In this document: positions 5,564 through 63,865 of the stretch, piece after piece
How the letters are laid out: the number at the start of each line of letters is the position of its first letter
How positions within the stretch are numbered: the stretch's first letter is position 1
Origin: Sphaerolaimus hirsutus
Taxonomy: Eukaryota; Nematoda; Chromadorea; Monhysterida; Sphaerolaimidae
Assembly: GCA_964036195.1 (NCBI GenBank)
Contig: OZ038453.1
Coordinates: 12,313,206 to 12,377,205, forward strand
DNA: 64,000 bases
Direction of reading: 5' to 3'
Notes under the pieces: generated by a model
Told to the model about the DNA's origin: nothing
What the model saw: the letters and a program-made list of their open reading frames with translations, nothing else
Database searches by the model: none
Program-made: the position numbers and the translations under genes

Positions 5564-6662
5564 TGTGTAACATTATTGTAAAATGTAAAATCTTTAATAT
5601 TTAAGTTGACGTTCTTATGTTCGCTTTTATATTTTAGTTTATTCAATTTATCAATATTCCATTACAGTTCACATTCCATTTTTTTACATTTTCACATTCG
5701 TCATTTAATATCTCAAGCGATCTTGTTTACAATGTGCGCTTTACGTTGCTCACATATTTAGATCTTAGTCATTGCTCACATTGCGCCACATTTCCTTGAC
5801 AAGCAGCACGCAAATATGCCGACATGTTTATGTTAAGCGGCGGGCCCGCCCCAAGCGATGGGCCGGGCCCGCGCGCCATTTCAAAATGTTGTCTGGCTTG
5901 TCTCACATTTTCACTATCTTGCCAGTTTAGCTCGCTTTTCATTGGAAGAGCAAGCGGGCAAGGATTGAACTTTCACAATTGGAAATGTTGGGTAAAAATC
6001 AGAGATTAGAGCCGACCGATTGGCGCCAAGTCAATCGCCATCGGTCTGGCCCTTAAAAGCCGATTTCACAGCTAAAATCGGCAGTGTTTGCAACCTCGTC
6101 AACTTCACACGAATCTCTTCCTAGGATCTAAATAAGCGCCGTTGTCACTTTATTAAGTCGCTTATTTTTTGGTGCTAAGTTTTAACCCTTGGTGCTTTAA
6201 GTCACCTCAGTGCTTTATTCACACCTGCGCTGTTTGAGGTGCTTTGTTCACAACCGCGCCACTTAATTATCGCCTTTTGTCGTAATTAAGTGCCTTATTA
6301 AAATTGCCTTATTTCTCCGGTAATTTGAGCTTCTTTTAGGTTTCATTTAAGTAATTAATTTAGCTGTAAATTAATTCCTTTATTTACGTATATTTTGTAT
6401 ATTTTATTTACATTTATTTCTTTGTATTTAATTGTCTAAATAAAAACGTTCATCAAAACCTCTTGAAAACAATCTAAATTTGCTTCACACTAACTCACGT
6501 CAATTCACTTCAACTCAACTAATCACATTGATAAAATAACGGAACGTCAACTAAGAGACGACGCTTCACGTCAAACTTCATACGCTCACATTTGTCCTCT
6601 TCCTCGGTTAGGGATAGGAGCTCGTTCACAAGTCAACTCAACAAGTTCCGTATTATTTTACA
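5564..6662 (+). repeat. Candidate 3' LTR of the BEL/Pao element
   Basis: The segment starts TGTGTAACATTATTG just after a purine-rich stretch (CGGGAG) and ends TATTATTTTACA, so the ends are TGTAA and TTACA, a usual short inverted LTR end. It contains a GC-rich palindrome at about 5838-5875, a short hairpin around TAAAAGCCGATTT at about 6053, and an AATAAA signal at 6439-6444. TCACA enrichment continues to its end and then stops, which supports the right boundary. The 5' LTR is outside the window, so the ends cannot be confirmed by LTR comparison. Confidence 0.55.
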
Positions 6663-7165
6663 GGGGTTTCCAAATTAGGGACTGAGTTTATGGGAGTTTC
6701 CAAATTAGGGGCTGAGTTTATGGGAGTTTCCAAATTAGGGGCTGAGTTTAAGGGAGTTTCCAAATAAGGGGCTGAGTTTATGGGAGTTTCTAAATTAGGG
6801 GCTGAGTTTATGGGAGTTTCCAAATTAGGGGCTGAGTTTACAGGAGTTTCCAAATTATGGGTTGAGTTTACAGGAGTTTCCAAATTAGGGGCTGAGTTTA
6901 TGGGAGTTTCCAAATTAGGGGCTGAGTTTATGGGAGTTTTCAAATTAGAGGCTGAGTTTATGGGAGCTTACAAATTAGGGGCTGAGTTTACAGGAGTTTG
7001 CAAGTTAGGGGCTGAGTTTACAGGAGTTTGCAAGTTTGGGGCTGAGTTTACAGGGGTTTCCAAATTAGGGGCTGAGTTTACAGAAGTTTCCAAATTAGGG
7101 GCTGAGTTTATGGGAGTTTCCAAATTAGGGGCTGAGTTTACAGGATTTTCCAAACCAGGGGCTGC
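6661..7165. repeat. 30-bp minisatellite, about 17 units
   Basis: Tandem units of exactly 30 bp, consensus near GGAGTTTCCAAATTAGGGGC plus TGAGTTTACA, with a few substitutions and no length change. Because 30 is a multiple of three and the unit lacks stops, decapeptide-repeat frames are open on both strands. I do not regard these as genes. The array begins at the last bases of the BEL/Pao LTR. Confidence 0.95.
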
Positions 7166-7725
7166 ATTTACTGGATTTAGAGGGGGTCCCCATGGGGTGC
7201 CATTTTGGGGGGTCTCCAGGGGGTGCCATTTTTGGGAGGTACATAAGGGGGTGCTATTTCAAGGGGGTCCCCATGGGATGCCATTTTTTGGGTGGTCCCC
7301 ATGGGGGCCATTTTTTGCTGGTCCTCAGGGGGGTGCTTTTTTAGGGGGGGTCCATAGGGGGTGCTATTTGGGGGGGGGGGGGTCCCCAGCGGGGTGCCAT
7401 TTTTGGAGAGTCCCCAGGGGGGGGGCCATCTTTGGGTGGGTACCCAGGGGGGTGCCATTTTTGTGGGGGTTCCAAGGGGGTGCCATGTTTGAGGGGTCCC
7501 CAGGGGGGTGCCATTTTTTTTTGGGGGGGGGGTCCCTAGGGGGGTGCCATTATTGGGGGGTCCCTATTGAGTGCCATTTATTGATGGTCCTCAGGGGGTG
7601 CCATTTCTGTGGGGTCCCTAGGGGGTCCCATTTTTGGCCAGTTCTCAGGGTGTGCCATTTGTGGGGGGTTCCCCGGGGGGTGCCATTTGGAAGGGGGTAC
7701 CCACTGGGGTGTCAGTTTTTGCAAG
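7166..7725. repeat. G-rich degenerate tandem array
   Basis: About 25-30 bp units built from GGGGTGCCATTTTTGGGG and GGTCCCCAGG, with runs of up to a dozen G on the + strand. The unit appears to have grown out of the neighbouring 30-bp array at about 7150-7190. Frequent G-runs with short spacers could form quadruplexes. The open frame running through it is a product of the repetition. Confidence 0.85.
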
Positions 7726-15198: not shown

Positions 15199-15305
15199 TA
15201 CCGTATTTCCTCGAAATACCCCCGGGGGGTTTATTGTTTCAGAGTGAGAATTTTGAGGGGGGGGGTTAAACGAGGGGGGGGGGGGTATTTCGAGGAAATA
15301 CGGTA
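15199..15305. mobile_element. CTCGAAATACCCCC palindromic MITE
   Basis: Perfectly ended by TACCGTATTTCCTCGAAATA and its reverse complement, about 105 bp, with C/G-runs inside. One of the most abundant small elements in the window. Confidence 0.85.
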
Positions 15306-15399
15306 TATAAAGTAAATACTTCATGTTAAAATAGGTAACATTATACACTTTGGACATGTCAAAACTGCTATTTTTACCACATCTTGGAACCTTTTCTGG

Positions 15400-15595
15400 C
15401 TCTATCGAAAACAATGGCGCCGGGCGCCAAAATGGCGCTAAGCGCCTAGGGCGCCATGGCGCCATTTGAAATACTGTCGCCAGGTCCCAGATGGCGCCAG
15501 AGAAAAGGGCGTCAAGCGCCAATGGCGCCATGGCGATGGCGCCTTTCGGCGCCATTGAGGGGCGCCAGCGCCATGGCGCCATTCCATCTCTATTG
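15400..15595. repeat. GGCGCC-word element
   Basis: Dense repeats of GGCGCCA and AGCGCCA on both strands, related to copies at 16655-16920, 26850-27020, 28985-29195, 30035-30245 and 55329-55421. Several copies end in TAGTGATGTAAAA or its complement, a hAT-like terminus. Confidence 0.7.
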
Positions 15596-15726
15596 GACAT
15601 GCGCTACTTACGCGCATGCGCCACGGTTAGCTGTTGTTTCCCTCCGATGACTGGGATTGGAATTTGCAGACGAGGATTGTATGGGAAATGCTCAGGCAAA
15701 TATTTTTTCAGAATATAAAATGCAAT

Positions 15727-15926
15727 ACACCGTATTTCCTCGAAATACCCCTCTTGAAATATCGCCACCCTCGAAATACCCTCAGGTGTAAGCCAGCTTA
15801 TAAAAAATAAAACGACTCGAAATACCCTCTCCCTCGATTGAACCCGCTAAAAATTTACAATTGACACGATATACTGATAACAAAATACCTAAATACCCAT
15901 CTGTGGGTATTTTGAGGAAATACGGT
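15727..15926. mobile_element. CTCGAAATACC-word MITE
   Basis: Bounded by ACCGTATTTCCTCGAAATAC and an inverted GAGGAAATACGGT, with decayed CTCGAAATACCC words inside. Confidence 0.7.
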
Positions 15927-15986: not shown

Positions 15987-18900
15987 TCATTTGCCAGCGG
16001 CGCCGACCACAGTGTCGTAAGCGGGCGGCGGCTGGTCATCGTGGTGCCGAATTTCGCCCGGCCCGGCCACTTGGCTGTAGCTGGGCGGCGGCTGCTCGGC
16101 TGGCACGGGGCCGGGTCTGTGGCCAGCCGCGGCTGCACCGCCGCCCGCTGAGTGCACACTGAATATCGGCGGCAGGTGGCTGGTGCCAATCCCAGACCCT
16201 GTAAAATGCCCTGTAAAACTGAAAATGTCGTGCAATGTGTCAAACGGACGTTTACTAGTTTGCAGGGCATTCTACATGACTTTTGACACTTTGCATCATA
16301 TTTGTGATTTTACAGGACACTTTACAGGGTCTGGGACTGCCCCCTGGTCAGCGTGCTGCGGGTATCCTGCGCCTGAAGTGGGTTCGTTAATTGGCAGATT
16401 GGTTTGCAACTGAAATCGCTCATGGAAATGAAGCACCATCTCCATGAGTAAGTAAGCGACTCATCAATACATTTGGCTGTGACTGTGATACTATTAGAGT
16501 TCAAACGGAATTGAACTTTCAGAATCGGGATTGCTATTTTGAATTTTCCGTATCGAAATTGGGATTGGGGTCACGGGATCAATATCGTGTAGCTACGTGA
16601 CATCGCTTCATTTTTTTATCGATTAGTCCCAATACTCCCAAGGCTTTGCCCATTCTAGTGATGTAAAAGCGCCATGGCGCTGGCGCCTGGGACTAGCGCC
16701 AAAGCAAAAAGCTCCATGGCGCTTTTGCCGCTTGGCGCTTTTTTGCTGTGGCGCCATTGGCGCATAGCGCCACACCCATGCAAAGCGACATGGCGCTTTT
16801 GGCGCTTGGCGCATTTTTTGCGCGACTCCGGGAACAAAATGCATGGCGCTAACGCCAACGCAAAACGCCATTTTGCTCTGGCGCCGTTGAAGCTTGGCGC
16901 TGGATTTCGGAAAGCGCCACTAACCTTATAAATTATAGGCAGTTTAAGAATTTTTGTTGCCCGCTACTGCAAATACGGAACCTTTCCTATTGGGAAAAAA
17001 GGCACCCAAACTAGTGGTTATGATGGGATAAAATGTGGTTTTGAGGAAAAAATTGTGCCCCTACTACATTTTCCAGAAAAAAAAGTAATTTTACTCGATT
17101 TACGCTTTACTAAGAAAAAAATACTCACTTTTATGCCTTCTGGGACACATATGAGTAACTTACTCTCATTTACTTATGAGAAAAATAAAAAATTACTCTA
17201 CGCTTTCTTTGCTTTTTACTAAAATTTGTACCGAAGGTCTGAGAGCTTGTTGTCTGGGTGAAGACAATTGAGGAGTTTTTTTCCGAAACCCGTTATCTGC
17301 ACGTTTTTGGGATGTTTGAAAATCGCACTTAAAATTTTGACATTGGCCCGAGCCAGGATGGTTTGAGTGACAACGCCCCCCCCCCGAAACTTTTCGAAAA
17401 CGCAATGAATTTATCTACATGGTCCGGCTGAAAAGTCCCCGGGCAGTGCTCGCCATTCACGCAAGGGTTAAGCTACGGTCATAAAATTTTAACACGTTAA
17501 TGTATCAGGTGTTTTGAGTTTTCACCTAAAATTTCACCCCTCTAGCTCCGCCCACTGTGGAACTGTGGGGGTTACAATTTCGGTCATTTGTACATCAGTA
17601 CAAAATGACCAAAATTGTAACCCCCACAGTTCCGCAGTGGGTGGAGCTAGAGCGGTGAAATTTTCGGTGAAAAACTCAAAAAACCTCATATATTAACGTG
17701 TTAAAATTTTAAAACCGTAGCTTACCCCTAGCGCGAATGGCGAGCACTGCCCGGGGACTTTTCAGCCGGACCATGTACATTTGAAATATTTACAACCCTC
17801 TGGCTGGCAAATATGGTTAAAGTTATGGCCACTTGATTGACATCACATCAACATACGTACATGCAGATTTGTTCCTTAACGGGTTTCGAGTGCAAACTAG
17901 GGTGTCAACAAAAAATTTTTGGCGGAAAACGGAAACGGAAACGGCAAAAAATTTGAACTTGCCGGAAAATGGAAACGGAAACGGAAAAAAATTTGCACCT
18001 GCCGGAAAACGGAAAACGGAAAAATGAAAGGCCGGAAAACTAAAACGGAAACACTTGCTGAAATTATGCCGGAAACGGAAAAAATTTGCTGAAATTTTGC
18101 CAGATACAGAAAAAAATTGCAGAAATTTATACAGAAATCAAAAAATTTGCAGAAATCTTGCTAGAAATAGAAACAATTCACATAATTGAGAACCTGCATG
18201 CATGTTTACCAGTTTGGCTGAAACAGAAAACAGATAATTGAGCCAGAAAATGAAAAAAAGTTGGAAAAACAGACAGTTGAGCCGGAAAACAAAAAAAGGC
18301 ACAAAAACTGAAATTTTAGCCGGAAAACGGAAAATGAGCCGGAAAAACGGAAACGGAAACAGAAAAAAAATTTAGCAGCCAGAAAACGGAAATGGAAATG
18401 GGAAAAAATTTGCCTGCGGAAAGCGGAAACGGAAAAAACGGAAAACAGAAAGTTGACACCCTAGTGCAAACTCCATTTTTGTATGGTGATTTTGACACCT
18501 CTTAGCCAAATCCTCAATGGGTTTCAGATGCAAACTTTTTTATCTGCCGATAACGGGTTTCGGGTGCAAAAAAACGATAGTTTTTTTTGTAGATAATGGG
18601 TTTCGAGTGCAAACTCACCTATTTTGGGCTGTAGATAACGGGTTTCGGATGCAAAGTTGCATTTTTTTAAAAATCGGTATCTCTGTATCTCGGGAACGGT
18701 ATGAGATATTGAGGTAATTTTTTTATCATGAACAAAAATGAAAATAGGTATATATCAGATCCGCACTTAACTCAATTTTTTTCACTTTTGCACTTGACGG
18801 GTTACGGAACCAAACGCCTCAATTGTCAAGACCAGCCAGTGGACAGTGGCGGCAATGCGAGGAGAATTGAACCAGTTTGTTCGGTTTTGACTTCTTATTT

Positions 18901-19701
18901 TTCGGAAACAAATTTGTCAGTTTTTGGTGTTTCTTCCAGAATTACTTGATTGACCATAAATCCTGGAATAATTCCCCTTGAATAACTCCCCCCTCGAATA
19001 ATTCCCCCTGTGTTCAATGTTGCAAATGCGTCGTGTCTTAAAAAACACTTGTTTTGGCACTCATCCAACGTAATTTCTACCCTCCGTTCTATTGGAGGTG
19101 CCGTTCTATTGGTGGCTGCCGTTCTATTATTTTCGTGGGTGCAAAAACAGGGCAAAAACCTGCCGTTCTATTGGAGGTGCCGTTTGATTGGAGGTATGCT
19201 GTTCTATTAGAAGAAATACAGTAGTGGGTTCCAAAACTTACAACATGAAAAACAAAAGAAAAGGTCAGGAGAGGAACAAACAAACCGGTGGAATTCTGCT
19301 CGCATTGCCGCCACTGACCACTGGCTGGGGGCAATCCCAAGCCCTGTAAAGTGTTTAGTAAAGTGTCAAATGTAAAGTCAAATGCAAAGTAAAGCAATAA
19401 AAACAAAAACGAAAACATTTTATTACTGAACTTTGCATGACAATTGACACTTTACTTTACACTTTACAGGGCTTGGGACTGCCACCTGGTCTTCGCTCAG
19501 ACAACAAGCTCTCAGCACTTTGATGACAATTCTCATTAACGGTGGACAAATGCACAATGGTGCTAATTGCAATAAGATTATAGGTATTATTCCGTAGATT
19601 CCAAAGGCGGAAATGCAGACATAACTTAGGAATAGCCAAAGGAAACCGTAACCAATGAATAGAATTAAATATGCACAACTGTCGATGGTATCTCCTCTCA
19701 T
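15987..19701 (-). CDS. Predicted multi-span membrane protein with PPxY tail; 5' exons not found
   Basis: Model on the - strand: exon 19486-19701, exon 19286-19324, exon 16326-16372 (or 16344-16372), exon 15987-16179, stop TGA at 15987-15989. Phases agree throughout. The first exon encodes two hydrophobic segments and a Cys-rich end (CCLSEDQ). The last exon is Gly/Ala/Pro-rich with two PY motifs, PPPSY and PPPAY, of the type that binds NEDD4-family ubiquitin ligases. Membrane spans followed by PY motifs recall LAPTM4-type lysosomal proteins, but that is a weak guess. Upstream exons should lie above 19.7 kb and were not found. Two introns are palindromic elements (19325-19485 and about 16180-16343). 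The large middle intron (3.9 kb) is filled with repeats. Confidence 0.42.
16180..16343 (-). mobile_element. Palindromic introner-like element, copy 1
   Basis: Read on the - strand it starts GGGGCAGTCCCAGACCCTG and ends GGGTCTGGGATTGGCACCAG, with a near-continuous inverted repeat between. It lies exactly between two predicted exons. Removing the whole element keeps frame but uses GG rather than GT at the left end. Using the internal GTAAAG at 16325-16320 with the terminal CAG also keeps frame and adds six codons from the terminal repeat. Confidence 0.65.
16655..16920. repeat. GGCGCC-word element copy
   Basis: It opens with TAGTGATGTAAAAGCGCC and is filled with AAGCGCCA/TGGCGCTT words. It lies in the large intron of the - strand membrane-protein model. 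Confidence 0.7.
17520..17695. repeat. Inverted repeat around GTAACCCCCACAG
   Basis: Sequence at about 17425-17600 (CCGGCTGAAAAGTCCCC, TTTTGAGTTTTCACC, GTGGGGGTTACAATTT) recurs in reverse complement at about 17601-17775, giving a 350-bp near-perfect palindrome from roughly 17422 to 17775. No coding frame of note. Confidence 0.75.
17898..18463. mobile_element. hAT-like GGAAAC-word MITE, copy 1
   Basis: The termini TAGGGTGTCAAC and GTTGACACCCTA are flanked by a perfect 8-bp duplication GTGCAAAC (17890-17897 and 18464-18471). The interior is dozens of GGAAAACGGAAACGG words all on one strand, although the ends are inverted. It inserted into a row of AACGGGTTTCGRGTGCAAA words that continues to about 18660. 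Confidence 0.92.
18826..18882 (+). pseudogene. Intron-lacking copy of an exon junction
   Basis: This + strand stretch matches the - strand membrane-protein model across the junction of its first two modelled exons (19486 and 19324). It reads AAGACCAG directly followed by CCAGTGGACAGTGGCGGC, while the gene has the 161-bp palindromic element between these two blocks. It lies in inverted orientation inside the gene's own large intron. It is either a processed fragment or a paralogue that never received the element. About 80-85% alike by eye over 50 bases. Confidence 0.6.
19325..19485 (-). mobile_element. Palindromic introner-like element with GT-AG ends, copy 2
   Basis: On the - strand it reads CAG|GTGGCAGTCCCAAGCCCTG ... 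GGGATTGCCCCCAG|CCAG. The arms pair over most of the length, and the inner GTAAAG/CTTTACAG pair offers a second donor-acceptor set. Its removal joins two open frames in phase and recreates the sequence seen uninterrupted at 18828-18840. CCAG occurs on both sides, so a 4-bp target duplication is possible. Confidence 0.72.
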
Positions 19702-39323: not shown

Positions 39324-40136
39324 GAGTACATTTCTATAACACTAAGTGTTTGATTTTTGTTCTAAAATGTGAAAAACTAAACGTGGAGGTCAAATCCACG
39401 CTTAACTCGATTTTTCTGGATTTGGCGCTTGTGAACTTTTGAAAAAATGGGTGATGTCGAGAAAAATTTTCAAAAATATTTTCTCAGAAAAGTTATCCCT
39501 CATAGAAAATGTAAATAATTAGATTTCTCTGGAATAGAAAAAAATTAAAAATAGAAGTTCTATTCTATTATAGAACTTAAAATTTAAAAAAAATTCTGAT
39601 TTTTTTAGAAATCTCAGCCAATCCGAAAAAAATATCATACATAAAAATATATAACTGGAAAATCCTGAAAAAATGACTTCTGAAAAAAAGGTGCACAGAG
39701 TTTTTGCAATCTTTTAAATCTAACAGTTGAAATGCATAGACGCTTTCTATATTTTTATAAAAAAAACTTAAATTTTTGTATTTTATGATATTATTCAAAT
39801 AAACCTCTCAGAGATATTTTCAATGCTGATCACACTGTGTAAAAAGTACCTGTTGAAAATATGCACAATAGCAGCGTTAAAAGAGAATCAAAATTTCATG
39901 CTATTTTACCAATATCTTTCTATCCTTTCTGCACACAAAGGATCAGTTACACAAAATTATAAAATTGTCTTTTAAATGTGCTATACATTTATTATGTGGA
40001 ATTTACTGTGTGTTTGCGCATTGTAAATTTACTTTTTGTCGTTTTTTGTCTGAGGTCTTTTCTGCATACAGGTATGGACGAAATGGGTTCACCTGTTACC
40101 TAAAATAGCCAAATACCGAAACAAAATATTCCAAAT
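39324..40136. other. AT-rich 5' flank of the Ly-6 gene
   Basis: No repeat of note. A possible acceptor (TTTTCTGCATACAG) lies at 40060-40073, about 65 bases before the ATG, and could mark a spliced or trans-spliced 5' leader. Confidence 0.35.
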
Positions 40137-43100
40137 ATGGACATTCGCCAACTTATCGTTATCTTTTTGCTCAATTTTTGGCACAGTGCCAATTCGGCGT
40201 CCATTCAAAAAGCATCAAATCGTCGGCGCCGCCAATCAACCTACGAACATCCGTTTTTCACGAGCCGCCAAAATCAGGGACAAAATCGGCCCGCTCACGG
40301 CGGTCACGAACTTTTCGGCCACTCGCAACAGAACCCGGTTCCCTTTTACGATTCCGGGTTTGAGACCCGCAACCCGAAACCGAACGAGTTTTCGCCTGGA
40401 TATGGTGCGGGTAAGGGATTTTTGCCGTATCCCGAGGGCGGGGCTTCGGTTCGGAAGGGTGTTCCGATCGGGAATTCTGGCCAGGTTACGAGTAAAGGTT
40501 CGTTGGGTGTAGGGGGCACCTCCCGGACCGTGTAAAATTCCCTGTAGAATGTCGAATTCTCTTATTGTTTTTTTGACGTTTGACACTTTTAATGACATTT
40601 GACGTTTTACACGGTCTGGGTAAAGTGGCGAAGTGAAAAGTTTTGTCTGGAAAATTGGGCCCGCACACGCTAGTTGAATTCGTAAGTTCGTCTCAACTCG
40701 ATGTCAACTAAATAACACAAACTTTCATTTTAAAGCATCACACTTAACAGAAACAATTAAAATCAAGTGTCATGATTAGGGATGGCCAAAAAACGTTTTT
40801 TTAACGACCCTGTTTTTTTACAATAAAAAAACATTTTAAATTAAAAACGATTTTTTTAAAGCTCCCAGATATGGTTATGGGTCAACATATAGCACTTATA
40901 CAAGGTTATAATATCAGGCTAATCCATTGACAGTGATGGATCACACTAGAAGTATGTGGGAGCACATTGGCTGGATATTATATGCTACACTAACATATCA
41001 CGGCTTATTATGACACAATAGCATGAACAAATGGAAGCTTTCACACTAAAAATGCCTCAAACCAATGAAAACAATCGCAAATGGTAAAGTGTATGTGAAA
41101 TTGCGCGCAAAAATTAGCAAAATACCTAGTACATAGTACAAAAAAATTTGGCTGCTGTTTTAAAAAAAAAACGGTTTCGATGCCTGTTTAAAAAAACAAC
41201 GTTTTTTTATATAAAAAAACGGTTAAAAAAACACCGGCCATCCCTACAGGGCGCGCAGATATTTTGCTTTGCATGCGGCGGTCAGCGTGAGCTCCGCCCA
41301 CTAGCGCTAACCCCTAAAATGACGAACGTTGGGTCAGGCTCGCCTTTTTTGTGTGTGAGCTCAATAACGACAGTTAAATTTCTACGATTTTTTACATTTG
41401 ACAGAGAACGCACATAATTTTAGCCCTCTGTGCATACGCTCGACCCGCAATTCCCATTTTCAAGCATGTGGTGGCCCTCGAAATGGTCGTAAAAGTCACA
41501 AGTTTGTATACTCGGCGTACATGATACTCTGCCCTCGCAGTGATTTATGTCTCGTGTTGGAAGCGTGCCAATGATTATTAAATCATGCGATTTCTGTAAA
41601 AAGAAAACCAATTCATCGATGTGATTATGTTAATGAATAACATTATAACAAGAATCAATTGTGTCATATTTTTATGAAACTCGCACGCGTAAACCATCAT
41701 TGGCACACTTCCAGCGGGAACCACGCGTGCAAGGTGTAAAGTAACCGGAGTGTATATGGAAAACGGGGCGCGCGCCTGGGCCAAAAAGCGCGTGCATTTT
41801 AAGATGTAGGCTGGCGCGAGTGCGCGGAGTAACAGTGGCACTTGGGTCGGTGCCAATACGCACAGGAATTTCTGCGCACACTGTAGTCATTATGTAAAAT
41901 TAACTATGCTCTTATCAGATAGGAACGTGGAAATCACCTTTTTTACTAAAATTTAGTTGACACGAATTCAGTTGACATCCAGCGTGTGTGGCGCCATTCT
42001 GATGCGAATGTATGCGTGCATGCTTATTAAATTCCCGCCAATTACGAAAAATTTATTTTTGCAATATAAGAAGAAAATTTTTTTGGAAATTTTGTTCGTT
42101 TATTTATTCGTGTGAGATTTCATTATTTCTGAGAAATTTTTTTGACATTAAAAAAACAATTTTCAACAAGAACAAATTTTCGCTGCGTTTCCCAGAGAGA
42201 TTAAATTAGGTATATATATATATATATATATATTAGGAATTCTTTTGAGACTGAATTTCATAGTATTTTCATTTATACGTATTACTGATAATTATCATTG
42301 TTCACCCCCCCCCCCCAGAACTCCCCACCTCCCACTGGTGCTACTACTGCGCCTCTCCCAGACACCACGCAACCGACCACAAATACGCGGCCGCCCTAGA
42401 CCAACTTTTCGAGTTACGAATGACGTCTTACCCCCATGACGTCATACACGAGTTTTGTCATCGGCCGCTAAATTTCAGCGCCGTTGCGAAACAGCCGTGT
42501 TTGCACGACGCATGTTATTCGATCACTTTTGGGGATCGATTGAAGGGGGGTTTGTTGGGTGGGGTTATTTGGTGGGTTATGGTAGTTGGGTGTTGGTCGT
42601 GGTCTTGAGAAGTCCCGTTTGAACACAGCTTTTGAAAAAACATGTGGTCTTTTGACTTCTGACGGTAAATTAGCAGAGACTCATTGTGCAGGTTGGTAAG
42701 TGAAACGGAATTGATTCGTGTCAAGTAAGCGTTATGTCAACTGACAAATAAACTTTGATAAGTTATCATCCACAAATTTGTGTCAATTTTTAAATTGTCT
42801 TAAAAACAGCATCTGAATTAATTTCTGATTACTGATATCGTCTGGAAGTTTTTCGGGTGAGGGGGTATTCTTTTCCTTACCCCGCCAAAAGCGGGAAGTT
42901 ATTCAAGGGGAACTTATTTGAGGATATACGGTGTACAAAAAAAAATAAAAAAGTGAAAATTATACGCACCCCAAAATTCAGACACTCCACTGACAGTGCG
43001 AGGATGTGCGGAAAACTTCCTAGCTGTTCCCCTAAATTCTGGCACTGGTCCAAAAATGGCGTCTTCATGCAGAACCCTACCAAGTGCCCACAAATTGCCG

Positions 43101-48574: not shown

Positions 48575-49625
48575 AGATTCAAAAGATTTTCAACCTGACA
48601 TTTAGAACCTGAAAGTTATCACTTGACATTTATGGCTTGAAATTACCCACTTGACAATAACTTGACATAAACCACTTGACATTTATGACTGAATGGCATC
48701 ACTTGATATTTATGACTTGACATGAACTGCTTGCCATTTTTTCACCTGATAGTTTTCACTTGACATAAACAACTTGACAGGTATCACCTGAAAATTGTTA
48801 CTTGACATATTACTTGACATTTGACATGACATTATCACTTGACATTAAACTTGACATTTCACTTGAAATTTATCACTTGACATTAAACTTGACATTTGAC
48901 ATGACATTTATCACTTGACAGACTTGCATTCACCTTGACATTTATCATTTATCACTGTATATTCACCTAGACTTGACTTGACTTTAGACTTGACATTTAA
49001 AACTTGACATTTGACTTGATATTTGATCACTTGACATTAAACTTTACATTTGACTTGACATCTCTCACTTGAAATTTGACTTGACATTTATCACTTGAAA
49101 TTTGACTTGACATATGACTTGATATTTGACTTGACATTTATGAGTTGACATTAAACTTGACATTTCACTTGAAATTTGTCACTTGACATTTTACATGACA
49201 TTTGACATTACATTTCACTTGAAATTTATCACTTAACATTTGACTTGACATTTGACATGACATTTATCACTTGACATTAAACTTGACATTTCAATTGAAA
49301 TTTATCAGTTGACATTTGACTTGAAAGTTATCACTCGAAATTTGACTTGATACTTTATCACTTGATATTTTATAACTATCTATCACTTGACATTTATCAA
49401 TTGACATTTCACTTGAAATTTATCACTTGACAATTATCACTTGACATTTCACTTGAAATCTACCACTTGACATTTATCACTTGATATTTGACTTGATATT
49501 TTATCACTTAATATTTTATCACTAGACATCTATCACTTGACATTTATCACTTGACATTTGACTTGACATTTATAACTTGACATTTGACTTGACATCAACC
49601 ACTAGACATTTATGACCTGATAGTA
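48575..49625. repeat. Degenerate CACTTGACATTTAT array
   Basis: About 1.05 kb of ACTTGACATTT units of 11-17 bp with variable spacers. No coding or palindromic structure; the units all point the same way. Confidence 0.9.
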
Positions 49626-55029: not shown

Positions 55030-55202
55030 CTGGTGCCAATCCCAGACCCTGTACAATGCCCTGTAAAATGTAAAATGTCATGCAAAGTTTCAAAAGTCAT
55101 GGAAAATGTGTTTCGATTTTGCAGATCATTTTACGTGACTTTTGACACTTTGCATGACATTTTACATTTTACACGGCATTGTACAGGGTTTGGGACTGCC
55201 CC
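55030..55202. mobile_element. Palindromic introner-like element, copy 3
   Basis: + strand CTGGTGCCAATCCCAGACCC ... GGGTTTGGGACTGCCCC, same arms and inner TTTTGACACTTTGCATGACA as the copies at 16180 and 19325. CCAG lies at both ends on the - strand. On that strand the flank reads open into ...CTCCAG and out again, but no convincing exons were recognised. Confidence 0.8.
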
Positions 55203-56381: not shown

Positions 56382-56558
56382 GGGGCAGTCCCAGACCCTG
56401 TAAAATGTCAAATGTCGTGCAAAGTGTCAAAAGTCACGTAAAATGCCCTGCAAAATGGCTATTAGATTCCCGGCGAATTTTGCAGGGCATTTTACGTGAC
56501 TTTTGACACTTTGCATGACATTGGACATTTTACAGGGTCTGGCTGGGATTGGCACCAG
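56382..56558 (+). mobile_element. Palindromic introner-like element, copy 4
   Basis: + strand CGAG|GGGGCAGTCCCAGACCC ... GGGATTGGCACCAG|TTCGG, arms pairing over almost the whole 177 bp. Left of it is a possible tiny exon preceded by TTTCTACAG; right is TTCGG|GTAAAA. It lies about 670 bases upstream of glutamine synthetase. Confidence 0.8.
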
Positions 56559-57227: not shown

Positions 57228-60200
57228 ATGTTCAACGTACGCGACCAGTGCGCCACCGATAAAGGGGCCATGCAGAAATACATGAGCATAAAACAGGATG
57301 ACAGGTGGGGCGGGTTTTTTTCACAATTTTTTATACGGTTTTCCCGGCGGGTTTTTTTGCGCCCGGGTTTTTTTACTGTCGGAAATTTACGCTCTACACG
57401 GTTTTGAGTAATATGACTACAAAATAATTGGATGTTTTCCCTCAAAATTCTCGGCTTAACTGTCAAATAGTTAGCGGTCTTGATTACCACCATCCTACAC
57501 TTGGCGCTGTGCCAAAATTTCACATTTCAACAACGCTTTCCAGGGTACAATGCATGTACGTCTGGATCGATGGGTCGGGAGAGAATTTGCGCGCAAAAAC
57601 GAAAACTGTCCTTAAGGCGCCGACGAAACCGGAAGGTTTGCTTTGGCAAATTTTCCCATGGATTTAGTTGTCAAAAATTTCCCGATAATTTTTGGGATTT
57701 CACGATCCTGATGCCGATCCCGAAGCCTCAATTCGAATTAGAAAATAAAAAAAGCTAATCCTGATCCCAAAAATTTCCTGAAAAATATTTCCCTGACTCC
57801 GACCCCAGAAAAACTTTTTTCACTGAAAGGGGAACAGAAACATAGGTACAGTGTGCATTTTATGCCATTTCTCTGGTGCAGGGTTGGTTTTATAAAAATT
57901 CATTTTAGTAAAATTGTATAAAAATTGTATAAAAATTTAATTTTTAGTTTATTCTTGTGACATTTTATTTTATTTTATTCCCAAAAGTCATTAATAAAAT
58001 AAAATGACACATTTTACAAAAATTTTACAAAAATTGTATAAAAATTTTACAAAAAATCAGAATCATGCATGCAAGGCCAGAAAAATGTTATTATTAGACC
58101 TATACATGAAAAACCTGTGACAAATTTTTCCCTTACTTTTCAAAAGTTGCATGCAGTATGTATGTCATGCAAAGTGTAAATTGTGTATCCAAATTTTGTG
58201 TTTTTGTATCCATAGTATGTTTTGTATCCAAATTTTGTGTTTTTGTATCCATAGTATGTTTTGTATCCAAATCTTATGTTTTTGTATGTGTTATCTTATG
58301 TTTTTGTAAATGTTCACATAAGATTTGGATTCAACAACAACATAATTTGGATACAAAACATAAGATTTAGAAATAAAACATTTGGACACTTTTTGCTTGA
58401 CAATTGATGATACTTTTATTTTTACATGTCATGACAATTGACACTTTGCATGACATCTACATGACATTTGATACTTTACAATGCTTGGGACTGCCCCCAG
58501 ATCCGTGAATAAACAGGTACAAACTCAAGCAATGAGATAAAATTCTACAAGAAAGATGAATTTTTATACAATTTTACAATAATACGAATTTTTATACAAT
58601 TTTACAAAAAAATTACAAAAATTCCAATTTTTATACAATTTGTATTTTTAAGATTTCCATTTTATTTTATTTTATTCTTGAATATTCCATTTTATTTTTA
58701 TTTTTTTCCTGAGGTTTTGCCAACCCTGATCTGGTGTCCAAATGTGTTTTTTATCAACTTTTTTTTTGTGAAAAATTAGTGTAAACCCTCTAATACTAGA
58801 TATTTGTCGACAATGCCAATCCTGAGACCAACCCTATCCCGACCTTAAAAAGTTGACCCCATTTGTACCCTATCTAGTTGTAGATCAAACTGTTTCATTG
58901 CGCGAAAATCGAGATTAATTTTCGTGGCAACGTTTTGGTCCCTTTCCCCCGAGTCGGGTCAAAATTCACCCCCACTTCAAAAAAAACGCAGACCTTCCCC
59001 TGTGGAATTTCGACGGGTCGTCCACGGGCCAAGCGACGGGCGAAAATTCGGACGTAAATTTGAAACCCGTGGCCATTTACAAGGACCCGTTCAGGGGTGG
59101 CGAGAACAAATTGGTGCTTTGCGAGACTTATGACCACAATTGGATGCCCACTGGTTGGTTGTGGTTTTTTTGATAGTGTGGTTCTTTACTGGAATGCGCT
59201 TTACCGGTTATTTACCGGAATGTGTTCTAGTTAACCGTTATTTCCGGTAATTTGTTCTTTGCGTGGTCTTTGCGATCGGCTGTCAGTTTAGACTTCGACC
59301 GAGATTTTTGGCTTACTCGATGGGGTAAATAAAAATGTCACCTTGCGTGCCCGCAGCTCCTTAGTGATCTGATGATTGGCACGACATCTGTGTGTCAACT
59401 AGTTTCCATGTCGCTTCAGATATTAGTTGACGGATAGCACGACATATTTCGATGCAGAAAGGTAATTGTATTAGGTTGTAAACTAAATAACCTTAATTTT
59501 TTGCGATTTCACATTCATGCGTCCCATTCTGTTGTACATTGGCGGATATTAATGCCGTTCGAGTATGTTGGGGTTTGGAGTTGGGGCTATGACGAAGTCT
59601 TTTTGTTTCCTCGAATAATCCCCCAGTCCCGAGATAAGGGGGGTCTATAAAAAGGTGGTCATTTTGAATAGCCGATCAGGACGTTGACTTTGAAGCTCAA
59701 TAAATCGGCCATTTCTTGGCCGATTTGAATCGATCAACTCTTAAAATGATCGGTAACTCCCACAGATTCCATTTTTGTGGTCGGATTAATGATGTTTGAA
59801 TTTCGTATGCTGATTTGACCCGGTTTTTCAACACCAGAAATTTGTTTTTCTGACCATGCTATCATAAACTTTAGATAAAGAGAATCCATCTGACGCAAAT
59901 TTTTTTTGCTCAATATCTCTTACAAATCAAATGTTATAGCGCTTTGAACTTTAGCCTCCCAACTATAGAAATAGGTAACCGCATTAAGCAGCAGGAATGC
60001 AACTTCTCCATATCCATATCCTCAGCGCATCTTTGATGGGAAAAGATTTGCCTCACCTGCATCACTAATCCGACCACAAAAATGAAATCCGCAAGTTTTA
60101 CTGATCATTTTAAGCGTTGATCAACCCAAATCGGCCCAGAAATGGCTGATGTATGGAGCTTCAAATATCCGTCCAACGTCCTGATCGGCCATTCAAAATG

Positions 60201-63200
60201 ACCACCTTTTTAAAGACCCCCCTTATCTCGGGACTGGGGGATTATTCGAGGAAACAAAATTTTTTCGTCATAGCCCCAACCCCAACCCCAACATACTAGA
60301 ATGTCATTAATATCCGCCAATTTACAACAGAATGGGATGCATGAATGTGAAATCGCAAAAATTAAGGTTATTTAGTTTACAACCTAATAATTCACATCGG
60401 TTTTTGCATTTTAACATCGCTCCGTCACCAATCAACTGAATTCTGGTTGCCCCGGTTGACACTAACGATGACAAACCCTGTGGAAAAAGATGACTGTAAC
60501 GTGTGTCCCGATGTCCTCCCGATGTGGGGCTCGAACCCACGACCGTTGGATTAAGAGTCCAACGCTCTACCGACTGAGCTAACCGGGATGTAGCTGTTTG
60601 CAAAAAATACGCGTGAGAATTGTATTCATTGTCTATTGTTGCCGATTGTCCGTTGCTCCATGCACAACTTCACATGTAAAATCAATGTGAAGAAATTCAA
60701 TGCAAAGGACATGCGCGGCATGCAAAATCATAACTGCAAGAATTTGGGTCGATGAATATTTGCCCTCATTGCATCTGTTGCCACACAAACATTTTTCAAT
60801 TGTCAATGTCAATTAAGGAATTCCATGTTCACTGTTCGCTGCTTTTTTCATAAAAAATTGATGGAGATTATCGCAAAAAAATCCGTAGCAATTTGTGGGA
60901 AAACGCTAGACGATTACTTATCTTTACATACCGTATTTCCTCGAAATACCCCCGTCAAAATGGGCACTATGAATTTATAACCCTCCCCCTCGAAATACCC
61001 CCCCCCCCCAATTTAGTGTATACGGAACGTACATGACAAAAGGTGCGGTTTGTGATCGGGGCAGTGCAGAACACGCTTAAAAACAATCACTGTGTTCCGT
61101 GAGAACAGTGTTTATACTGTCTACACACATATACAAGCCTATGGAGTCATAAACATGGCATTTTTTTTTGCATTTATCAACGTCTGCGTACGTTTCAGAC
61201 GACAATTGTTTACTTTAAGAAAATTTCTGGCGAAATAATAACCCCCCCTCGAAATACCCCCCACCTCTCGTTTAGCCCCTCCTCAATTTTTCCACTTTGG
61301 AAAAATAAAAAACCCCGGGGGGTAATTCGAGGGAATACGTTACTTAATTTTTTCTCATCAAAACCAACTTTTCCCGCCCCCCCCCCCAAATGCCACTTAA
61401 CCAAGTGCCCCCAAAATCCATCCCACTCAACCCCCCCCCAAATCGCAGCCACAAACAAGCGAAACACTTGTGTGGCGGTGATGAACGAGGCCAGGGACCA
61501 ACATCCGTGGTTCGGCATTGAGCAGGAATTCACGCTGCTCGATGCCGATCACCATCCGTTTGGCTGGCCCAAGAATGGATTTCCGGGACCGCAGGTGATT
61601 TTTCTTGTTTTATTTTGGATTCCCCTCTCAAAGTGTTGAATACCCCCCCCCTCTCGAATAATTCCTCCCTGTTAGACGAGTGAGGGAACAATAACCCCCT
61701 CGGAAAATTCCGACCTTAAATGTGTATTATCGAGTTTTGTTCAATTTGTCCATAAATAGCCTGTTACCTGTTTTGTGAGTAAATCATATTTAGTTCAATG
61801 ACTTGATAGAAATATGCTGCAAAATTTTGACAAAATATTTTCTCATGAAAAAATTCTCCCCTCGAATGGCCGTCCCCCTCAAGAGAAGTCTGATGAAATA
61901 ATAATTCCTCCTCTTGAATAATTCCCCCCCCCCCCCCCTGCTCCCTAAAAAGTGTGATAATAATAATTCCCCAGGGGGATTATCCGAGCAAATACGGTAT
62001 ATTTTCTGGAAATCACCAGTTTGTTGGAACGCTAGTCGAACATCACCTCTTTGTTCGACTCCCTTCTTGCAATTTATAGATTTCCGACATACCTGCCTAC
62101 ATAAATTCCATTCACATCCTACGAACAATTCACTGAAACCCCATTTAATGAATTAAACACGAGTGCGCGAACTGGAAATTCAATTCCACTTCAAAGTCAA
62201 CTCACGTTCCCCCAGGGCCCGTACTACTGCGGCGTGGGCGCGAACAAGGTGTACGGGCGCGACATCGTCGAGGCACACTACAGGTGCATGCTCTACTCGG
62301 GCATACAGGTGTCCGGCACCAACGCAGAGGTCATGCCTGCGCAGGTGTGTGGGGGCGGGGCGTTGGGCGACATGGCTCCCTGGACATGTAGACTCGCTGG
62401 TCATGCACACCCGGTGGACATGTATTTCTATCCACTGGAGATTTAGCGGCGTCGTACGACAAGAAAAGTCATCACTTGTCACTTTCTGACTTTCCTTCTC
62501 GCTTTACTTATAGCGAGTTTACATGTCTACGGCCACACGGTCGTTGGAGCTTGGTGCTTTGGGAAAAAAGTTTTTATTGGTTGATCTCAAATTTCATCGT
62601 CCCTGAATTATTACTGAACAACTCTTGATTGGCGTGAACAAAACAATTTCCAAAAACAAGACTCACAAAAGAAAAAAAACAACAGTGGAAAACCACATCT
62701 TTCAACAACTTCCCCTCAACTAACCCCCCCCCCCACCCCCAGTGGGAGTTCCAAGTGGGCCCGTGCGAGGGCATCGCCATGGGCGACCAATTGTGGATCG
62801 CCCGGTTCATGCTGCACCGCGTAGCCGAGGACTTTGGCGTGGTCGTGTCCCTCGACCCGAAACCTATCCCTGGAGATTGGAATGGTGCTGGGTGCCATAC
62901 CAACTTTAGCACTGATGTTGGTTTTGGGGGGGGGGGGATTTTTTGTTTGATTTTTTTGGTTACTTGGCGGACCGCAAAGTATGAAGAATCCTACCATGAT
63001 TTGATGAGTAAAATCTTGTGATAAATTTCGTAATTTATTATTCCATGGTAAAAACGAAACGTTATGATGAAAAGCTGTAAAAAAATTTAATTGATTATTC
63101 AGATGGGTTATGGTAGGTTTCTAATCCAAGTTTGATGTCTGCCGAGTATAAATAGCAAAGAAATGTTCACATTTATGAGTGTAATTCTTTATCGATACGT

Positions 63201-63865
63201 AACATTTGCAGGCGATGCGTGCTGAGGGCGGCATTAAGGCCATTGAAGCTGCCATTCAGAAGCTTTCCCAGGTAAACTTTGTCTATTTTACTGTACTCCA
63301 GGCCTTTACTTCATGGTGTTGTTTCTCAGTATGACAATATTTGGAGTTTGCTAATGATAGGTAGGACACCATGTGTAACGATTGAAAATAAAAGTTGGAA
63401 ATTTCGGAAACTTTTTTGAATTTCTGTTTCACCGCTAGAAAAAGCCAAAAAAATCTATATATTTTTCTGGAAAAAATCGAAAATTCGAAATGTCATTAAA
63501 TAACAAATTTTGAGAGAGAAAAACACTTTAAAATTGAAACACGTTATTCCAGAAAATTTGCCATCGTTAATCATGCCATGGATTCCTACTGAACCAAAGA
63601 TACTTTTCACATTCCATCCCATTCTCCAATCCCATCACCCCAACCCCTAATCCCGTTCTCTCACCCCCCACCCTTAATCCCCCAACCCCCCCCCCCACAG
63701 GCTCACCACGACCACATCGCCTACTACGACCCCAAGGGGGGCATGGACAACGAGCGCCGACTCACCGGCCAGCACGAGACCGCAGCCATTTCGAATTTCA
63801 GCGCGGGCGTGGCTACGAGGGCTGCTAGTATTCGCATTCCCAGGGCCTGTGCGGATGAGGGGAAG
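57228..63865 (+). CDS. Glutamine synthetase (type II), exons 1-8, 3'-partial
   Basis: ATP-dependent ligation of ammonia to glutamate (EC 6.3.1.2), a cytosolic or mitochondrial decameric enzyme. Exons: 57228-57304, 57544-57635, 58992-59153, 61449-61594, 62216-62344, 62743-62916, 63212-63271, 63701-63865. All introns are GT-AG, and phases agree to give 335 residues. ATG 57228 has A at -3 and an in-frame TAA at 57207. The N-terminal beta-grasp part holds [13 protein letters not shown] and WNFDGSST. The catalytic part holds WFGIEQEF (metal-binding Glu 135 and 137), [37 protein letters not shown] and SIRIPR. About 35-40 C-terminal residues (one or two exons) lie past the window. STGQ and PTATNKR are features I associate with nematode homologues. 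Introns 2-4 are large and full of transposons; several acceptors sit behind long C-runs. Confidence 0.96.
57879..58728. mobile_element. AAAATAAAAT-word hAT-like element in GS intron 2
   Basis: CAGGGTTGGTTTTATAAAAA and GTTTTGCCAACCCTG ends with a 7-of-8 target duplication (CTCTGGTG against ATCTGGTG). Contains GTTTTTGTATCC words (58165-58300) and half of a palindromic introner-like element ending CTTGGGACTGCCCCCAG at 58501. Confidence 0.8.
59470..60388. mobile_element. Fold-back element with 325-bp arms in GS intron 3
   Basis: The left arm 59470-59794 (ATTAGGTTGTAAACTAAATA onward) pairs with 60061-60388, with a loop of about 265 bp. Shared phrases include CCCAGTCCCGAGATAAGGGG and TGACCACCTTTTT with complements. 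No frame of note. In the transcript it would make a very long hairpin. Confidence 0.88.
60516..60588 (-). tRNA. tRNA-Lys (CTT), antisense in GS intron 3
   Basis: Same 73-base cloverleaf as the other two copies (loop CTCTTAA, T-loop TTCGAGC). The outer flanks differ from the other two loci, so it is an independent copy. It lies inside an intron of glutamine synthetase on the opposite strand. Confidence 0.95.
60931..61346. mobile_element. CTCGAAATACCCC element in GS intron 3
   Basis: TACCGTATTTCCTCGAAATA and inverted AATTCGAGGGAATACG ends, with an internal core (AACGTACATGACA, CGTCTGCGTACGTTTCAGAC) shared with 30303-30778. Ends about 100 bases before exon 4. Confidence 0.8.
61620..62000. repeat. 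CTCGAATAATTCCCCC-word element in GS intron 4
   Basis: CTCTCGAATAATTCCTCCC words on the left, TTGAATAATTCCCCCCC in the middle and GGATTATCCGAGCAAATACGGTA at the right end. Confidence 0.65.

Follow-up and report, generated by a model that had tools for sequence, protein, structure and literature searches.

How new introns arise is an old question. The locus analysed here raises it for a palindromic repeat bordered by CAG, one copy of which may have become an intron. Introners are rare in animals and were detected in only two animal groups by PMC9860276 (the stem 'nematod' is absent from its main text). If the target letters of a transposon are themselves the consensus of splice sites, a simple and testable rule would follow. 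In the window, by which the whole analysed stretch of 64,000 nt is meant, the first-pass annotation had described an introner-like family of such repeats. Their transposon nature was confirmed, but a well-formed intron was recognised for the copy at 19325 only; the copy at 16180 is doubtful and an introner family was not demonstrated. The insertion of a MITE is firm for one copy, and there is one good candidate for an intron gained de novo.

Six copies of the repeat are present in the window, five near-complete palindromes and one half copy, and the positions given for them before (16180, 19325, 40513, 55030, 56382 and, for the half copy, 58501) were borne out by inspection. Three lie on the minus strand: copy 19325 (19325 to 19485) consists of an element of 158 bp at 19328 to 19485 and one CAG duplication at 19325 to 19327, the other CAG being 19486 to 19488; copy 16180 (16180 to 16343) has an element of 161 bp at 16183 to 16343 and one CAG duplication, with the ends GGGG...CAG; copy 55030 (55030 to 55202) has an element of 170 bp at 55033 to 55202. 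On the plus strand are copy 56382 (56382 to 56558, element of 174 bp at 56382 to 56555), the diverged copy 40513 (40513 to 40633) and the half copy (58430 to 58500), whose right end TGCCCC is followed by CAG. The arm motif CARTCCCARRCCCTGTAAARTG occurred eight times with at most three mismatches, and in 100 dinucleotide shuffles the mean and the largest count were both 0. Exact scans for this motif in the viral and in the prokaryote collections gave 0 matches in each. The inverted repeats span almost the whole element. Copy 16180 was predicted to fold at -83.0 kcal/mol (z -11.9) and copy 19325 at -88.1 kcal/mol (z -15.5), each far better than 200 shuffles. A profile was built from the five near-complete copies, whose own matches to it are by construction; it recovered the half copy with E 1.8e-11. 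Weaker profile matches (best E 8.8e-5) were obtained at 48.8 to 49.3 kb, inside a tandem satellite (48756 to 49625) of ACTTGACATTT-like units, which is similar to the interior of the hairpin.

Read on the strand that shows CAG, the borders are CAG-GGGGCAGTCCC..GGGATTGGCAC-CAG for copies 16180 and 55030, CAG-GTGGCAGTCCC..GGGATTGCCCC-CAG for copy 19325 and GAG-GGGGCAGTCCC..GGGATTGGCAC-CAG for copy 56382. The diverged copy 40513 was read by eye as TAG-GGGGCACC..GTGGCG-AAG. CAG is exact on both sides in three of the five near-complete copies, with one mismatch in the other two (GAG and CAG, TAG and AAG). Hence, the borders carry a repeat of 3 bp, which is CAG where it is exact. The family ends are GGGGCAGTCCC and GTGCCAATCCC. 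The left end begins with GGGG in four of the five near-complete copies and with GTGG in copy 19325; among four right ends compared, three start with GTG, whereas that of copy 19325 starts with GGG. A duplication of 2 bp (AG) was set aside; with CAG the two ends come out equally long (11/11) in four copies, and the empty site of copy 19325 agrees with it. Formally AG would still do, because the neighbouring bases repeat. The terminal CAG had been described as adding a second acceptor. The acceptor form does exist at copy 19325 (CCCCCAG). This CAG is most plausibly a target-site duplication and not a part of the element. One longer element, suggested by the flank letters GACCAGCCA common to copies 16180 and 19325, was rejected because copies 55030 and 56382 are without these letters. 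The transposon nature of the family is strongly supported. It looks like a non-autonomous DNA transposon with inverted repeats (MITE), the insertion of which duplicates CAG.

For copy 19325 the state before insertion is preserved in the same window. Its flanks recur on the plus strand as an inverted partial copy (17216 to 17265 and 18828 to 18881) without the MITE and with CAG only once. The left half (17216 to 17265) matches at 78% over 51 columns. The right half (18828 to 18881; 54 bp, 90.7%, E 2e-14) crosses the insertion point, where it reads AAGACCAGCCAGTGG..., and represents the empty site. Thus, copy 19325 entered continuous DNA, and cutting out the element with one CAG restores the older sequence. 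A clean insertion into continuous sequence is firmly shown for this copy alone. Over the best-aligned 76 bp the flank and the empty copy differ at seven positions, which by hand count fall 2/2/3 over the codon positions and give no signal of selection. The junction-crossing matches of the other four near-complete copies were their own flanks or covered just 23 and 27 bp (E 0.02), and no convincing empty site was found among them. The empty copy is split by an unrelated inserted element (17263 to 18827) with inverted ends of 39 nt (GACAATTGAGG..., 82% complementary). This element holds a further large palindrome at 17413 to 17780, and its border repeat may be AA.

Judged by its target and ends, the hairpin family behaves like, and probably is, a NuwaI-type MITE, the fit being good for the duplication and for one of the two ends. 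NuwaI, which belongs to the PHIS superfamily of transposons (PIF/Harbinger, ISL2EU, Spy), has CWG target duplications, ends usually starting with GGG and inverted repeats of 12 to 61 bp, and its members are moved by a DDE transposase together with a Myb/SANT partner. In the sections of the source consulted, the 16 animal genomes listed for it in 2015 are those of 12 bony fish, a beetle, a crustacean, a mollusc and an anthozoan, without a nematode among them (PMC4482050). Shared with NuwaI are the CWG duplication (CAG here), one end starting with GGG, the inverted repeats, an animal host and the same kind of empty site. In contrast, the other end starts with GTG here and the inverted repeat takes up almost the entire length. 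A Pfam search with 19 ORFs of the window and one joined protein gave no transposase; only a glutamine synthetase ORF scored above the curated cut-off. The Tm1 Mutator/Foldback elements of root-knot nematodes resemble the family as nematode foldbacks with MITE-like members and element-free paralogous loci. They differ by target duplications of 9 bp without target preference and by other ends, and an intron-forming role is not mentioned in the consulted part of that paper (PMC3169594).

Host introns for comparison were taken from a glutamine synthetase gene on the plus strand (58967 to 63865), of which six exons were seen, incomplete at both ends. The query of 267 residues gave a best match of 76% identity, and the best 120 of 7,992 scored proteins lay at 65 to 76%. 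Organisms named among the matches listed include Haemonchus, Strongyloides, Plectus and C. elegans. The window and 26 sequences hand-picked from the 120 listed, a selection without tardigrades, priapulids and horsehair worms, were put into a tree of 27 rows. The window grouped with five sequences (98/96), adjoining ten nematodes, and the joint group of 16 was found at 100/99. The host is thus likely a nematode or a close relative. The gene has at least five introns of 295 to 2295 nt, most of them with C-rich acceptors; none of the five is the hairpin element. The donors are GTTGGT, GTGATT, GTGTGT, GTTGGT, GTAAAC and GTGGGT, the acceptors CGCAG, CCCCCAG, CCCCCAG, TTTGCAG and CCACAG.

The cut borders of copy 19325 are CAG/GTGGCA and CCCCCAG/CC (the slash marks the cut). 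This is the form of a GT-AG intron, with GT and AG exactly at the borders of the insertion. The duplicated CAG would serve as acceptor, while the first CAG forms the exonic side of the donor. Six of nine consensus letters are matched by this donor, compared with 5 to 8 for the six host donors, and 9% of the GT on the plus strand of the window score as high. The acceptor CCCCCAG is identical to two of the five host acceptors. When copy 19325 was folded alone, the starting GU and the final CCCAG were predicted to be unpaired beside the stem, with GTAAA and TTTACAG inside it. With flanks of 60 nt the first six intron bases were predicted to be paired. The earlier proposal that the hairpin brings the two splice sites together is thus not firmly supported. 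With CAG as target and G as the first letter of the element, a MITE of this kind, read on the CAG strand, would build exon-CAG/G...CAG/exon. A flipped insertion on the CAG strand would bring GT at once, because the right end of the family is GTG; a complete flipped copy with this GT-starting end on the CAG strand was not seen in the window. Huff et al. 2016 reportedly presented a model for such insertions.

Copies 19325 and 16180 had been described as lying exactly between exons of one minus-strand gene. These exons are without homologue support, and a rival frame is longer: with copy 19325 removed, 108 codons are open in the proposed frame at this site, against 164 in a second frame on that strand. 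Putative exon 1 (19486 to 19701) comprises 72 codons from an ATG, is hydrophobic and ends at GACCAG. It would be followed by exon 2 (19286 to 19324; 13 codons), a doubtful exon 3 of 29 nt (16344 to 16372), which was picked by frame, and a last exon (15987 to 16179) with two PPxY-type motifs (PPPSY, PPPAY) and a stop. Cutting 19325 to 19485 and 16180 to 16343 end to end gives an ORF of 158 codons that ends in a stop, the ends of the two small middle exons having been picked by us. Provided that the ORF around it is a genuine gene, copy 19325 is most likely removed, or removable, as an intron. As an intron made by the insertion of a MITE it is a candidate, at about an even bet. The reading preferred here is that of a NuwaI-like MITE family in which copy 19325 is a candidate intron, copy 16180 may or may not be one and the other copies are ordinary MITE insertions; its chances of being right are about equal to those of being wrong.

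It is also quite possible, though somewhat short of even, that all copies, 19325 included, are ordinary insertions in intergenic DNA, in existing introns or in broken genes. The GT-AG form at the ends of copy 19325 would then be luck, made likely by a target of CAG and ends beginning with G. In agreement with this, GT is found at the end of only one of the five near-complete copies (19325), and no gene was recognised at three of the six copies (55030, 56382 and the half copy). Furthermore, the excess of long ORFs at the five restored sites was not significant (P 0.18 against random places and 0.23 against 1,476 CAG sites). For the putative protein of 158 amino acids no homologue at E<=1 was found among 72 candidates, and the best Pfam match of the joined protein (E 0.25) was under the cut-off. 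The codon-position GC of exon 1 is flat (0.39/0.39/0.40), compared with 0.59/0.45/0.74 for the glutamine synthetase. On the other hand, the ORFs around three of the five restored sites are 139, 164 and 150 codons long and each rank within the top 5 to 9% of either null, which is a weak, post hoc point. The end-to-end cut is in phase at both copies of the putative gene, and the coincidence of GT and AG with the exact borders of the 19325 insertion argues against mere MITE insertions as well.

For the remaining copies the intron form is less convincing. Copy 16180 has no GT at its ends, since it starts with GGGG, and ATTCAG and CTCAG, which lie downstream of the element, are equally possible acceptors; as an intron it is doubtful. 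Copy 40513 lies at the end of the ORF 40104 to 40512. This ORF looks coding, with a signal-peptide-like start and a codon-position GC of 0.57/0.47/0.54, and runs into the element. After excision of the copy the frame stays open for about 14 codons further, and the ends of the element are not GT-AG. No homologue was found for the ORF 40137 to 40511, for which 2 candidates were scored. As introns, the six copies amount to one good and one doubtful case.

It is improbable that copies 19325, 16180 and many others are spliced through GTAAA and TTTACAG of their arms, whichever way the element is turned, with the splice sites paired by the hairpin. The motifs are indeed present on both arms and both strands, as had been observed, and the hairpins are strong. 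As a splice pair (CCCT/GTAAA...TTTACAG/), however, they would retain 18+19=37 nt and put both copies out of frame (hand count), and both lie in the stem; this pair was rejected. The in-phase joining of frames that had been claimed therefore stands for the end-to-end cut and not for this internal pair. The internal donor CCT/GTAAAG with the terminal acceptor would, by count, add 18 nt to both copies and keep the frame, but GTAAAG scores 5 of 9, is matched by 31% of the GT on the plus strand and lies in the stem. Against a general splicing of the family stand also the GG at the end of copy 16180, its exon 3 picked by frame with other acceptors downstream, and copy 40513, which adjoins a coding-looking ORF without GT-AG ends. 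In favour of such splicing, introner elements of Amoebophrya are likewise formed by hairpin-forming inverted repeats with short direct repeats (3 to 5 nt) at the exon borders; in the part of the report consulted, their splice sites are mostly non-canonical and the host is a dinoflagellate, whereas the sole good candidate here is GT-AG (PMC7789003).

With the introners of Gozashti et al. 2022 (PMC9860276) the family shares inverted repeats, target duplications, one splice site derived from the duplication and a message restored on removal. It differs in having one candidate only, with putative splicing, and in copies that lie also where no gene was recognised. A nematode intron-gain study mentions introners, in the part consulted, only as known in other organisms (PMC9169325). 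The first-pass annotation knew of no such family in nematodes, and in agreement none was described in the literature searched, which comprised titles and the starts of abstracts, with preprints and most subscription papers outside its range. It is, at present, a tentative and rather unlikely generalisation that a nematode or a near relative has a NuwaI-type hairpin MITE in the role of an introner. In that case the fixed CAG target would duplicate the 3' splice site and place the exonic CAG/G of the donor in advance, and insertions starting with GT on the coding strand would become introns in one step, with the message unchanged.

Two further repeats were observed in the window. A palindromic repeat, GGGGTATTTCGAGGAAATACGGT, recurs on both strands at 15200 to 15926, 30304, 45714, 55770, 56030 and other places and forms a separate repeat family. 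At 6537 to 7298 lies an array of 30-bp tandem repeats, which forms a repetitive ORF on either strand.
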